Assembly (NCBI RefSeq): GCF_004402235.1
Contig: NZ_SOFS01000023.1
Span: 1 to 64,000 of the forward strand
Reading direction: 5' to 3'
Length of the DNA: 64,000 nucleotides
DNA from: Cryobacterium glucosi
GTDB lineage: Bacteria > Actinomycetota > Actinomycetes > Actinomycetales > Microbacteriaceae
Every line of letters begins with the position of its first letter. Position 1 is the first letter of the stretch. Of the stretch, positions 31,579 through 36,081 are shown piece after piece. Made by a program: the position numbers and the translations under genes. Below the pieces are notes generated by a model. It was not told the DNA's origin, ran no database searches, and saw only the letters and a program-made list of their open reading frames with translations.

Positions 31579-32061
31579 TCAGGCTTCCCTCACGAGGGCG
31601 GCGGTGCGGCGGAGCCACGGGTCCTGGTCGCGCGCCCAGCGCTCGATGGCGGCATCCGCCCTGGTGCGAGGGAGTCCGGAGAGCCGTCCGACGAGGGGGC
31701 GGGTGACATCGCGGGCGAGCGGATCCGCGAGCGCGGCCAGCCGGGCGTCGCGGAGGAAGCCTTCGATCCGGGTGAGATCGGTGTTGGTCAGCAGTGCGAC
31801 GTTCGACTGCAGCAGGACGACGGCGGCGAACCGGCGCTCGAAGACGGGAACGTCCCACAGCTCTGTGCTGAGCGCCGTGACCTCGTCATGCGTCAGCCCC
31901 GGGTACCGCCGGGCAGCGTCCCGGATCGTGCCCCGGATCGCCCCGATCGTCGCCCCGTAGAAGTCCAGGTCGCTTCCGAGTCTGGTCTTCTCCGCCTGGG
32001 CCCGGTATTCGTCCCCCTCGTTGCGCAGGGTGGTATCGACGAACTCGCAGGCGGCGCTCAC
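31579..32061 (-). CDS. AlkD-like DNA alkylation-repair protein, C-terminally short
   Basis: 160 residues. F-V-D-T-T-L-R near the start, S-D-L-D-F-Y-G-A-T, then L-W-D-V-P-V-F-E-R-R-F-A-A-V-V-L and E-R-W-A-R-D-Q-D-P-W-L-R-R-T-A-A-L-V are the N-terminal two-thirds of HEAT-repeat DNA glycosylases (PF08713). Members are usually about 220-240 residues; this one stops just after the W-x-R-R helix, so the last helices that help grip DNA are missing. No matching sequence follows in any frame before DUF3039. The GTG start is seven bases from the ABC permease stop, with no clear ribosome-binding site. It may be a decayed gene. Confidence 0.6.
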   Translation of the reverse strand: MSAACEFVDTTLRNEGDEYRAQAEKTRLGSDLDFYGATIGAIRGTIRDAARRYPGLTHDEVTALSTELWDVPVFERRFAAVVLLQSNVALLTNTDLTRIEGFLRDARLAALADPLARDVTRPLVGRLSGLPRTRADAAIERWARDQDPWLRRTAALVREA

Positions 32062-32068
32062 CGACGGG

Positions 32069-33646
32069 TCAGGCGCGCAGCGCCGAGGCGAGCATCTCGG
32101 GTCCGCGGGCGTCGAACGTGCGGCCCCCGAGCCAGATGCCGCCCCAGAGGGTGAGCAGGCCGACGACGACACCACTCGCGAGGGACGGCAGCAGCCAGAC
32201 CGGATCGACGAAGAGGCCGAGGACCGCGAACCCGATCGCCGGGAGCGAGAGGATGACCGATCCGACGAGGGTCACGGACTGGATCAGCGCTGCCGCGGTG
32301 TCGGAGGCTTGCGGCTGCGTGAACGGGCTGTCGCCTGGCTTGGATGCCGGGTAGGGGAAGCGCGCCGAGCTGTAGCTCGAGAAACCGAGTCCGGTCAGCA
32401 GGATGCAGGTGCTCACGCCGAGCACGGCGGGGAACGCGCCCCAGTCGCCGTACACGGCGACGCTGATGCACGAGCCGATGCCGATCAGTGGGATTCCGAC
32501 CAGGAACGCGGGAACGAGACGGCCCATCCGGTCGGCCATGCCCCGGGTGCCGGAGACGACGTGCAGCCAGATCGCGGTGTGGTCGAACGCGACGTCGTTG
32601 TGAAGCGCCCAGCCGAGGAAGATGCACATCAGCGGCACCGGCAGGAGCGCGAGGGCCTGGACCGGAACCCCGGCGAACGCGAGCGGGAGAACGACGAGCA
32701 CCGGGATCACCGGGATCATCACGAGGGACATGCCGTAGCGGGGGTCCCTGCGCCAGTAGGTCAGGCTTCGTGCGGCGATGGCGCCCGCGGCATTGTTCGG
32801 CAGGCGGTCGAACCAGCCGAGGCCGCCGTACTCCTTGGCGACGGCTTCCCTGCCGGGTGAGACGAGCATCCGGCTCACGAGCGCTTGCCAGGCGACCCAG
32901 AGGACGAGCAGGAATGCCGCGGCCTCGAGCAGCTTGAGGAGTGCAGCACCCCAGTCCCCACCTGCCGCGTCGCCGGGCGCCGACCAGGCCGCCCCGAGCG
33001 GAGTCCAGCCGAGGATACTGCTGAGGCCGCCGATGAAGCCCGTGCCGTAGAGACTCCAGTCGAGGTTGACCACGAGCACGGTGACGGGAGCGAACATGAC
33101 GAGCAGGAGAACGCCGACGATTCCGGCGATCTCCCGCGCGCGGCGAGTGGCCAGCAGGAACGAAGCAATGGACGTACTGACCCGGGAGCCGAGCATGCAG
33201 GTGGCAAGGAGGAGCGCCGCGGACAGGACGGCGAACACGGTCTCACCGGGTCCGCGCGACCAGGTCACGATGGTGCCGAGCAGCACGATCGTGAGCACGA
33301 TTGCGGGGACGCCGATCAGTGCGGACACGGCAAGCCCCAGCGACAGTTGCCGGTTGGGGATGCCCATGACCGCGAACTTGCGGGGGTCCATGCTGTCGTC
33401 GATGCCCGTCATGAGCGGAATCAGCAGGAAGCCGAGCACGACGAGCGAGCCGGCGACCACGATGCCGTCACGGATCGAACCGACGCCGTCGTCGACGAAG
33501 CGCAGGCCGACAAGCAGGGCGAAGATCCCGGCCGCGACCGCGAGCCCATAGAGCAGTCCGATCACGATGCCGACGACCTGCCAGGGGCTCCGCCGGAAGA
33601 GATTGCCGAAGAGCCGGAGCTTCAGTCCGAGAAACTGTGCAACCAT
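32069..33646 (-). CDS. ABC transporter permease
   Basis: 525 residues with about 12-14 hydrophobic segments. It begins F-L-G-L-K-L-R-L-F-G-N-L-F-R-R-S-P-W-Q. This is the large unpartitioned permease of an exporter-type ABC system; Pfam assignment and substrate cannot be given from sequence alone. Its start overlaps the end of the ATPase gene by 25 bases, so the two form one transporter. The AlkD-like gene follows. Confidence 0.78.
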   Translation of the reverse strand: MVAQFLGLKLRLFGNLFRRSPWQVVGIVIGLLYGLAVAAGIFALLVGLRFVDDGVGSIRDGIVVAGSLVVLGFLLIPLMTGIDDSMDPRKFAVMGIPNRQLSLGLAVSALIGVPAIVLTIVLLGTIVTWSRGPGETVFAVLSAALLLATCMLGSRVSTSIASFLLATRRAREIAGIVGVLLLVMFAPVTVLVVNLDWSLYGTGFIGGLSSILGWTPLGAAWSAPGDAAGGDWGAALLKLLEAAAFLLVLWVAWQALVSRMLVSPGREAVAKEYGGLGWFDRLPNNAAGAIAARSLTYWRRDPRYGMSLVMIPVIPVLVVLPLAFAGVPVQALALLPVPLMCIFLGWALHNDVAFDHTAIWLHVVSGTRGMADRMGRLVPAFLVGIPLIGIGSCISVAVYGDWGAFPAVLGVSTCILLTGLGFSSYSSARFPYPASKPGDSPFTQPQASDTAAALIQSVTLVGSVILSLPAIGFAVLGLFVDPVWLLPSLASGVVVGLLTLWGGIWLGGRTFDARGPEMLASALRA

Positions 33647-35823
33647 TCCATCCCCTCCGCCACTTTTCGCCCTCCGGCGAGTTCGATGAACCGTTCTTCG
33701 AGGGTCTGCCCGCCACGCACCTCGTCGACAGTGCCGGCCGCGAGGACCTTGCCGTTGACGATGATCGCGACGTGATCGCAGACCCGCTGGATCAGGTCCA
33801 TGCTGTGGCTCGAGAGGACGACGGTGCCGCCACTTGCAACGTACTTCTGCAGGATCTCGGTCACGTTGACCGCCGAGACCGGGTCGACGGATTCGAACGG
33901 TTCGTCGAGAACGAGCAGGCGCGGCGAGTGGATCATCGCGCAGGCCAGGGCGATCTTCTTGGTCATGCCCGCCGAGTAATCGGCGACCAGTCGGTTGAGT
34001 GCGTCCTCGAGTCCGAACGCAACGGCGAGGTCGGCGGATCGTTTCCGGACGGTCGCCCCGTCGAGCCCGCGGAGCACGCCGGCGTAGTAGAGCAGCTGGG
34101 CGCCGGTCAGGCGGTCGAAGAGACGCAGTCGGTCCGGCAGCACCCCGATGACGCGCTTCGCGGCGATCGGGTCGCTCCAGACGTCGATGCCGTGGACCTC
34201 GATCGAACCGTCGTCCGGACGGAGGAGGCCGGTGACCATGGAGAGGGTCGTGGTCTTGCCCGCACCGTTCGGGCCGACGATGCCGTAGAAGGAGCCGGTG
34301 CGGACCTCGAGGTTGATTCCGGAGACGGCGAGCGTGCTTCCGAAGGACTTACGCAGGGCCGTGACAGAGAGGACGACAGGGGCGGGTGCGGTACGGGCAC
34401 CGGGAGCGATGGCGAGGTTCGCGGCAGCCGGCTCGGCAGGCTCGACCTCTGGCTCTGGCTCCGGTTCCGGTTCGGGTTCCGGCTCGGGTTCTGGTTCCGG
34501 TTCCGGTTCCGGTTCGGACACGAGCTCCGGCACGGGCGGGGCCTGCGGCTCCACCGAGTGCACGGTTTCGGGCTCGGTTTCTGTCTCGGGCACGAGTTCG
34601 GTTTCCGACTCGGTGACGGGCTCAGTTTCGGGCTCACTGGGGAGATCGGTGACGGGCTCCGCGTCAGGCTCGGTTGCGGGCTCGGTGACGGTCGCCGGCT
34701 CGTCGAGAGTCGAGGACCCTGCCGCCTTCGCGACGATCGGCACGGGTGCTGCGGCGACGACGGGCCCGGGGTCGGGCTCCGGAGCGTCGATCGGCTCAGG
34801 GACAGCGACGAGTCCCGGTTCCGGAACGGATGGGGCAATCGGCTCACCAGCACGAACCGGTGCCGGTACCGGCATGACCTTGGTCGCGGGCGGAGGTGTC
34901 GGGTCCGGACGGACCGTCGACACCTCGTCGTCCTTCGGCTGCGTGGCTGCCGGCGTGGTGGACTTGTTCTCGACGGGGGGCAGGTGCAGGCCGAGGACGG
35001 CCGTGGCGACCCAGTCTCTGGAGGTCCCGACTCCCGGGCGGATGCGTGGGGGCTTGGGAACGGCGGGAGGCGCTGAGACAACGGATGGCACGACGATCGG
35101 CACGACGCCGGGTACGGGAAGCCAGCCGCCGCGTGCGGGCGCGTCCGGCGGCATGGGGCCGAGTGAACGCTTGGCGAGGGCCTCGGTGCGGGCCTGCGCC
35201 TGGGCGCGGGCAAGCGCCTCCGGGTCGGGACGCGGTTTGATCGCGGCCAGAGCCAGGGCATCGGCCTGCGCCTTCGCGCGTGCGGCGGCATCCGCCTGGG
35301 CGCGCGCCTCGGCCGCCTCGTACTCGCGAGCCTGGGCAGCTGCGTACTCTTCGGCTTCGGCACGGGCACGAGCCTCCGCCTCCGCCTCGGCCTGCGCCTG
35401 GGCGAGGGCTTCCGCGGCGGCAAGGGCCTCCGCACGGACGACGGCAGCCTTCGCGGCACGCGACTTCGCCGCGCTCGCCCTCGCGGCGCGTTGACGAGCG
35501 GCCGTCTCGGCCTTTTCTGCGGTCGTGCGGGTCTTGGCCGCGGCTCCTGCCGCAGGGGCGACATGGGTCGGGGACGGCTCGGCCGGATCAGCGGGTTTCT
35601 GGGGAGCCGCGGCAACCTTGCGAACCGGGCTGGCGCGGGGCTTCTGGGTTCGGGCGACGGGGGTTCGGGCTGCCGGAGTTCGGGGTGAAGCGGTGCGCGC
35701 CGAGGTTGCGCGGTCGGGCGTCGTCTTGGCCGGACGCGCCGGAATGGCTGCGTCGTTCGACGGGGCCGAATCGGACGCGGGCACAGTTGTGGTCGGCTCG
35801 TTGGGCTCGGAGTTGGGAGGCAC
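33622..35823 (-). CDS. ABC transporter ATPase with ~480-residue low-complexity N-terminus
   Basis: 733 residues from GTG 35823, which has GAGG eight bases upstream. The ATPase domain occupies only the last ~250 residues (from about 482): Walker A G-P-N-G-A-G-K-T-T (517-525), signature region Y-S-A-G-M-T-K-K, Walker B L-L-V-L-D-E-P, H-switch S-S-H-S-M. Before it come a basic/Thr/Pro stretch (1-90), an Ala-rich charged helix (about 97-228; A-E-A-E-A-R-A-R-A-E-A-E-E), a segment R-D-W-V-A-T-A-V-L-G-L-H-L-P (269-282), Pro/Val/Glu-rich sequence and an EP dipeptide run (437-463). The frame is unbroken. It is coupled to the permease gene downstream. What the N-terminus does is unknown; such a fusion is far from the normal ~250-300 residues. 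Confidence 0.85.
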   Translation of the reverse strand: MPPNSEPNEPTTTVPASDSAPSNDAAIPARPAKTTPDRATSARTASPRTPAARTPVARTQKPRASPVRKVAAAPQKPADPAEPSPTHVAPAAGAAAKTRTTAEKAETAARQRAARASAAKSRAAKAAVVRAEALAAAEALAQAQAEAEAEARARAEAEEYAAAQAREYEAAEARAQADAAARAKAQADALALAAIKPRPDPEALARAQAQARTEALAKRSLGPMPPDAPARGGWLPVPGVVPIVVPSVVSAPPAVPKPPRIRPGVGTSRDWVATAVLGLHLPPVENKSTTPAATQPKDDEVSTVRPDPTPPPATKVMPVPAPVRAGEPIAPSVPEPGLVAVPEPIDAPEPDPGPVVAAAPVPIVAKAAGSSTLDEPATVTEPATEPDAEPVTDLPSEPETEPVTESETELVPETETEPETVHSVEPQAPPVPELVSEPEPEPEPEPEPEPEPEPEPEPEVEPAEPAAANLAIAPGARTAPAPVVLSVTALRKSFGSTLAVSGINLEVRTGSFYGIVGPNGAGKTTTLSMVTGLLRPDDGSIEVHGIDVWSDPIAAKRVIGVLPDRLRLFDRLTGAQLLYYAGVLRGLDGATVRKRSADLAVAFGLEDALNRLVADYSAGMTKKIALACAMIHSPRLLVLDEPFESVDPVSAVNVTEILQKYVASGGTVVLSSHSMDLIQRVCDHVAIIVNGKVLAAGTVDEVRGGQTLEERFIELAGGRKVAEGMEWLHSFSD
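34435..34515 (-). repeat. EP-dipeptide coding repeat
   Basis: A run of six-base units of the CTCGGG/TTCCGG type encodes about 13 successive Glu-Pro pairs in the N-terminus of the ABC ATPase. The units differ at synonymous positions, so this is an old or selected repeat rather than a fresh expansion. Length variation between strains is likely. Confidence 0.85.
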
Positions 35824-36081
35824 GTGAGTCACCTCGCCAACCCTACCAACGACCCTCCGACAAGACTGGATGGCGGGCGCGAATCCCGCCGAAAACGCGC
35901 TCGACCCGGCCCGTTCACCGGGGCCGATTCCACGCGGCGGCACCCGAAAGGGGCACTTCGGGTAGACTGACCCTTTCATGTTGGTGTGTCTGAACGGAAA
36001 AGACGAGGTGAACCACAGGCAAACTGGCTCGACATTTTTCGAACCGGGCGCAGGTAGCCCGACACTGTTAAGGAGACAAAT

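Follow-up and report, generated by a model that had tools for sequence, protein, structure and literature searches.

The window analyzed here is a 64,000-nucleotide stretch of the Cryobacterium glucosi genome (contig NZ_SOFS01000023.1, positions 1 to 64,000). On its minus strand, a single open frame encodes about 480 residues that are not ATPase, followed by a C-terminal ATP-binding cassette (ABC) ATPase, and this fusion of tail and ATPase is genuine. The reading that we favor, with modest confidence, is that the tail is a translated, clade-specific and fast-evolving polyampholyte whose effect on an ABC-2-type exporter depends on its length and charge. The start signal, the in-frame coding pattern, the restriction to one clade, the hypervariability of the tail and the intact ATPase motifs are the parts of this reading that the sequences support; the helix, the disorder and the permease fold are predicted from models.

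Counting from the predicted leaderless start codon, the tail makes up 484 of the 736 residues (66%), which agrees with a preliminary description of the window in which two-thirds of the protein was said not to be ATPase. The ATPase matches ABC_tran (PF00005) at 90.4 bits, above the Pfam gathering cut-off of 25. Across 47 aligned rows, G520–T528 (GPNGAGKTT), Y619, S620, G622, M623, D643, E644, P645 and H676 are invariant, and the residues of Walker A, the signature, Walker B and the H-loop are all intact. The engine is therefore an ordinary one. The gene is laid out as follows.

33622 to 35832, minus strand: whole gene of the 736-residue ABC ATPase with its 484-residue N-terminal tail (open frame, start signal and ABC_tran match)
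33622 to 33624 and 35830 to 35832, minus strand: stop codon and predicted leaderless GTG start of the ATPase gene
33625 to 34380, minus strand: ABC ATPase domain with catalytic motifs, residues 485–736 (Pfam, alignment and AlphaFold2)
35840 to 35849, minus strand: predicted extended −10 promoter TTGGTAGGGT of a leaderless transcript, 7 nucleotides before the GTG (pattern scan; all but two of the 74 uncut loci have a signal of this type)

Translation of the tail

In actinobacteria, the motif TANNNT about 10–12 bp upstream of a start codon characterizes leaderless mRNAs (PMC3160421, PMC3898074). Start signals were compared in 81 loci (the window and 80 homologous loci), 74 of which are uninterrupted by contig ends; the cut loci were assigned no start. 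The motif lies 6 (62 loci) or 7 (10 loci) nucleotides before an in-frame GTG or ATG in 72 of the 74 uncut loci, L061 and L110 being the two that lack it, and it takes the form TTGGTA... in 54 of the 72. None of 576 other in-frame start codons of the same frames carries this signal. In the window, it is spaced 7 nucleotides from the GTG at 35832–35830, so the exact promoter pattern with 6-nucleotide spacing has no match there. The GTG three codons downstream, which the preliminary description had taken as the start, is preceded by AGGTGA and could be used too, with a difference of three residues. Shine-Dalgarno sequences were considered as the start signal and rejected: in a crude scan, strings of this kind precede in-frame starts in a minority of loci, and the leaderless signal explains far more.

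The tail also changes in the manner of coding DNA. Related loci were compared in 24 hand-chosen and overlapping pairs, 3 of them identical and 21 diverged (for the Agreia loci, the frame was taken from the upstream stop and is 12 codons too long). Third codon positions vary most in the tail in all 21 diverged pairs. The ratio of nonsynonymous to synonymous substitution rates (dN/dS) of the tail is 0.23–0.61 in 20 of these and 0.76 in L113/L114, where the compared frame exceeds the real tail; in the same pairs, dN/dS of the ATPase is at most 0.10. In L142, the genome nearest to the window, the ATPase is 98.4% identical and the tail 90.1% identical with 34 gap columns. Given the third-position changes, the dN/dS values and these gaps, the tail is very probably translated together with the ATPase, mildly constrained, and quick to gain or lose segments.

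These data bear on the alternative that the upstream frame is untranslated, or an artifact of GC-rich DNA, and that the ATPase begins near 34,380. The high GC content does leave more than one reading frame open over long distances here, the opposite strand included, but the leaderless signal stands at one in-frame start in 72 of 74 loci and at no other in-frame start of these frames, and both the codon-position pattern and dN/dS of the tail speak for translation. The preliminary description had named a start near 34,380 beforehand as what would tell against it; the signal marks the far start instead. Because of this signal and the in-frame changes of the tail, a start near 34,380 is unlikely, and an untranslated upstream frame is a highly improbable explanation.

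Distribution and origin of the tail

Among 398 Microbacteriaceae genomes of 85 genera, 327 genomes in 71 genera have a match to the ATPase at an E-value of 1e-70 or better, with open frames of 261 to 979 residues among the matches listed, some possibly shortened by contig ends. Measured from the leaderless start in 72 loci, the tails are 22–661 residues long, and 69 of the 72 have at least 95 residues; the short ones (22–34 residues) belong to L113 and L114 (Amnibacterium) and L116 (Galbitalea). L113 comes from a record of an Acidobacteria metagenome-assembled genome (JABBOB010000021.1), and because its ATPase nests with Amnibacterium, the contig is probably misassigned. In one genome (G193:C1, G193:C2), three ATPase copies have equal score, identity and frame length, which is either a duplication or an assembly artifact. 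The family genomes without a match at this threshold number 71, and the 20 of these that were listed are all 0.9–2.4 Mb in size.

Outside the clade, 16 homologues were compared. Twelve represent other families of the same order, and 4 are paralogues from the same genus. Eleven of the 16 begin 2–59 residues before the domain when a looser TANNNT rule is applied; the frames of L132, L133 and L134 are open for only 38, 48 and 92 residues, and L123 and L128 have an unclear start. The frame is open for 163–671 codons upstream in the order-level loci L121, L123, L125, L128 and L130, and a longer tail in these five is unlikely. Set against these homologues, the tail is unusual, as first proposed. In the midpoint-rooted ATPase tree, 81 orthologue rows split from the 16 outgroup and paralogue rows at 100/99, and the short-tailed Amnibacterium and Galbitalea loci nest amid long-tailed rows (L048 was scored as short solely because its contig ends). 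The long tail is a Microbacteriaceae trait, for which the simplest account would be one gain near the base of the orthologue clade and later shortening.

Composition and predicted structure of the tail

The features recognized in the window's tail are these.

35797 to 35832, minus strand: N-terminal head MTHVPPNSEPNE, common to many Cryobacterium tails (consensus alignment)
35593 to 35712, minus strand: basic Arg/Pro/Thr/Ala-rich segment, residues 41–80, net charge +10, predicted to be disordered (composition; AlphaFold2 block confidence, pLDDT, of 41–46)
35239 to 35511, minus strand: long predicted Ala-rich helix, residues 108–198, with a basic start and then Ala/Glu/Arg/Gln (AlphaFold2)
35164 to 35223, minus strand: second predicted helix, residues 204–223 (AlphaFold2)
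34978 to 35019, minus strand: RDWVATAVLGLHLP, residues 272–285, supposed docking motif of the preliminary description, not conserved and predicted to be disordered (Trp listing, alignment and AlphaFold2)
34438 to 34752, minus strand: acidic Glu/Pro/Thr block including (EP)11, with 6-, 12-, 24- and 36-bp tandem repeats in the DNA (composition and repeat scan)

For the window protein, AlphaFold2 predicts the two helices (about 111 residues, block pLDDT mostly 81–92) and nothing else with secondary structure ahead of residue 486. Order-promoting residues are almost absent from one stretch of 210 residues in the protein, whereas the longest such stretch in the other 60 open reading frames picked from the window is 74, by a crude picking that includes some spurious frames. 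The basic segment described at first is present. The long helix, first put at 130 residues, is supported by the prediction of these two helices, and the Pro/Glu block exists with other numbers: 28 EP dipeptides in the tail and a longest run of 11, where 13 pairs had been counted. A stiff rod, as had been proposed, would be formed at most by the predicted helix and not by the rest of the tail. Neither the EP run, which is encoded by tandem hexamers, nor the Ala/Glu/Arg/Gln form of the helix is a shared feature of the tails; other species carry different repeats (for instance AAK, VRKP, TAAK and DTDT among those listed). On these comparisons, the sequence of the tail is hypervariable.

Nine other Cryobacterium genomes share a head (MTPVPPNSEPDE...), Ala/Lys-rich stretches, and islands resembling RRPFWRLPR and VRKP; the window shares the head with them and, loosely, an Ala-rich basic stretch. 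A motif shared across genera was sought and rejected, since only the N-terminal head and stretches rich in Ala, Lys or Arg recur. The pattern (R/K)(R/K)PFW(R/K)(L/F)(P/N)R occurs in the tails of L043, L045, L051, L144, L146, L147, L148, L149 and L154, and this RRPFWRLPR-like motif is confined to these nine Cryobacterium genomes.

The preliminary description had seen the tail as a rigid spacer or a scaffold that may dock through one specific motif, WVATAVLG, in a segment that looked ordered. The segment is intact in the closest genome (L142), and the helix is predicted with fair confidence, but just two extensions out of 103, those of the window and L142, contain WVATAVLG itself (a variant without Trp was not searched for), in a listing of every Trp-containing segment that includes some duplicate records and does not include L113 and L114. 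It also falls in a stretch, residues 266–291, with pLDDT below 50, and the nine other Cryobacterium genomes bear their different, RRPFWRLPR-like aromatic motif elsewhere in the tail. WVATAVLG was rejected on these grounds and is probably not a docking site; the aromatic-basic RRPFWRLPR-like motif is the better candidate for a specific contact, and a spacer or scaffold that docks through WVATAVLG is very improbable, although a scaffold role as such is conceivable. The likeness to TonB-type linkers that had been pointed out is one of resemblance only: the window's tail matches no Pfam family at an E-value of 0.1, and thus no TonB domain. A sequence search of the PDB with residues 95–240 gave no match at an E-value of 0.01.

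Another alternative is that the tail is a nucleic-acid-binding arm of histone H1 type that would tether the exporter to the nucleoid or ribosomes. Of 10 tails tested, 4 match Hc2 (PF07382) below threshold, and 3 match Hc2 or another H1-like model from a second library, again below threshold. Efficient binding of HupB to DNA has been ascribed to AKKA/PAKKA repeats, and HbhA, which bears AKKA repeats, is also reported to bind DNA (PMC10665949). None of the 10 tails reaches a curated cut-off, however (best scores 30.3 against 40 for PF07382 and 16.6 against 135 for NF038052). Three of them, two being Hc2 matchers, also match the plant-type family Extensin_1 below its cut-off, and in one tail this match (E-value 7.9e-15) stands above that to Hc2; such scores therefore follow composition. 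The window's tail has neither an Hc2 nor an Extensin match and is acidic overall, with a net charge of −25. A tether of this type is unlikely.

The partner permease

32069 to 33646, minus strand: partner permease of 525 residues, probably with both transmembrane halves in one chain (open frame, AlphaFold2 and fold comparison)

The start of the permease gene overlaps the ATPase gene by 25 bp, an overlap from which the two are probably translationally coupled. A homologue of the permease was found in 36 of 36 genomes of the same genus and in 12 of 23 other members of the order that were searched. The protein has no Pfam match at an E-value of 0.1 and no NCBIfam match at 0.01, and a PDB sequence search gave one match (0.63) that was taken as chance. 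Its AlphaFold2 model, built from 46 sequences, has a mean pLDDT of 83.3. In fold comparisons, where a Z-score under roughly 13 may reflect helical bundles in general, the second half resembles CcmB (Z 15.8), NosY (Z 13.3) and ABCG and ABCA proteins (about 11–13), and the first half resembles ABCG25 only (Z 11.1). Foldseek returned no hit at 0.001; the best had an E-value of 2.8e-3 and a TM-score of 0.27. None of these fold matches points to a particular substrate. The partner of the ATPase is thus a permease with a predicted ABC-2-type membrane fold. According to the model, one chain probably supplies both membrane halves, and each transporter would therefore contain two ATPases and two tails.

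The neighboring genes, by Pfam, encode an AlkD-type DNA alkylation repair protein (31579–32175, between the permease and DUF3039 genes), a DUF3039 protein, NAPRTase, an NTP transferase, an ABC2_membrane protein and another ABC ATPase.

Proposed action through length and charge

In the mechanism that we propose, the gene product serves as ATPase in an ABC-2-type exporter, and the gene that overlaps it downstream encodes the permease. The ATPase would have gained its tail, translated from the leaderless start, early in the Microbacteriaceae orthologue clade, and the tail would since have been mostly kept long while its sequence changed freely. Selection on the bulk properties of a disordered region should leave just such a tail, mostly long but with letters free to change. 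This long and mostly disordered polyampholyte, which most likely works through such properties, would consist of a basic Ala-rich part, helical in this lineage, and then an acidic Pro/Glu part adjoining the ATPase. It may form a flexible electrostatic arm at the inner face of the membrane, the basic part of which could bind polyanions (lipid of the inner leaflet, nucleic acid or the acidic part of the same tail), thereby positioning or tuning the ATPase. A bolder version is improbable: two histone-H1-like or polyampholyte arms per transporter would attach to the nucleoid, to polysomes or to anionic lipid, and their charge would gate ATP hydrolysis, leaving the sequence free while length and charge layout stay.

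The charge layout was examined in 95 tails (after removal of 3 contig-edge rows, L028, L048 and L077, and 9 duplicates; L113 and L114 are not among them), in genus-level groups labeled by hand from record titles. Of the 92 tails of at least 100 residues, 77 have their basic part before an acidic one; by group, this order is found in 21 of 29, where shuffles average 14.2. A 24-residue stretch free of Pro and Gly and rich in Ala plus Lys or Arg occurs in 51 of the 94 tails of at least 60 residues, where shuffles lead one to expect 6.8.

Several points weigh against action through bulk properties. The charge order is a tendency, being reversed in 8 of the 29 groups, and the maximum of 300 shuffles was also 21. 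The Ala/Lys/Arg-rich stretch is found in just 9 of 30 groups, by criteria set after the sequences had been viewed. Net neutrality of the tail was considered and rejected, with net charges ranging from −49 to +30. The short tails of L113, L114 and L116 imply that a long tail is not essential to the exporter. The orthologues are related and thus not independent, and the dN/dS values stand without a frame-shifted or neutral control. The looser promoter pattern, which occurs once in the window, occurs also in 24 of 100 shuffles; the window alone therefore carries little weight, and conservation across loci is the evidence. Finally, a tolerated tail could drift neutrally.

This last point is the main rival, and a serious one. 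The tail could be translated but nearly neutral low-complexity ballast, lengthened and shortened by repeat slippage in GC-rich DNA and tolerated at the free N-terminus of the ATPase. The 6- to 36-bp tandem repeats of the tail's coding DNA, the wide range of tail lengths among orthologues (22–661 residues) and the 34 gap columns between genomes with nearly identical ATPases are all consistent with it, and A-rich compositionally biased regions are described among the most variable in bacteria (PMC8004648). Conversely, at least 95 residues are kept in 69 of 72 orthologues, tail dN/dS is below 1 in all 21 diverged pairs, and the head, the Ala/Lys stretch and the RRPFWRLPR-like motif form conserved islands over nine Cryobacterium genomes. 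On balance, ballast is possible but doubtful, and selection on length and charge remains the reading that we prefer.

Comparison with known systems

Low-complexity regions are described as uncommon in bacteria (PMC8004648), and no description of such a tail was found in the literature searched (open-licence papers, judged from listings). A family in which a disordered arm, usually of 95–661 residues, sits on an ordinary exporter ATPase offers natural variation in tail length and charge while the engine itself is conserved. Such variation would allow tests of selection on bulk properties versus motifs, and of the effect of a tail on an ABC exporter.

For the engine, the mycobacterial ABC efflux pump Rv1217c-Rv1218c (PDB 8k1m-8k1p) is the nearest system. 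The ATPase matches Rv1218c (E-value 1.6e-35), and the permease model aligns with Rv1217c over most of its length (Z 10.5, 395 residues aligned, root-mean-square deviation 12.2), Rv1217c also being the weak best Foldseek hit mentioned above. Unlike this pump, the permease here is without a Pfam or NCBIfam match, and the Rv1218c chains in the PDB (289–311 residues) are too short for such a tail. The nearest solved relatives of the ATPase are the nucleotide-binding domains of ABCA7 (E-value 5.3e-61), ABCA3 (2.1e-60) and ABCA4 (2e-58). Its best NCBIfam match is drrA (203.2 bits), although this lies below the cut-off of the DrrA subfamily (TIGR01188, 312.45 bits), from which the long N-terminal tail also sets it apart.

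For the tail, likenesses are looser. Several tails share Ala/Lys/Pro-rich repeats and sub-threshold Hc2 or H1-like matches with the tails of Hc2, HupB and HbhA, but those described here sit on an exporter ATPase, have acidic blocks and stay below the cut-offs, and the window's tail is unmatched. TolA and TonB spacers connect a membrane anchor to a periplasmic domain. The window's tail resembles them in its long, charged, Ala-rich helix and its EP- and Pro-rich sequence, and it matches TolA (TIGR02794) below the cut-off (20.9 bits against 59.45), whereas it precedes an ATPase domain. The engine is thus a known one, with Rv1217c-Rv1218c and the ABCA- and DrrA-type ATPases as its nearest relatives, and the tail is a clade-specific elaboration of it.

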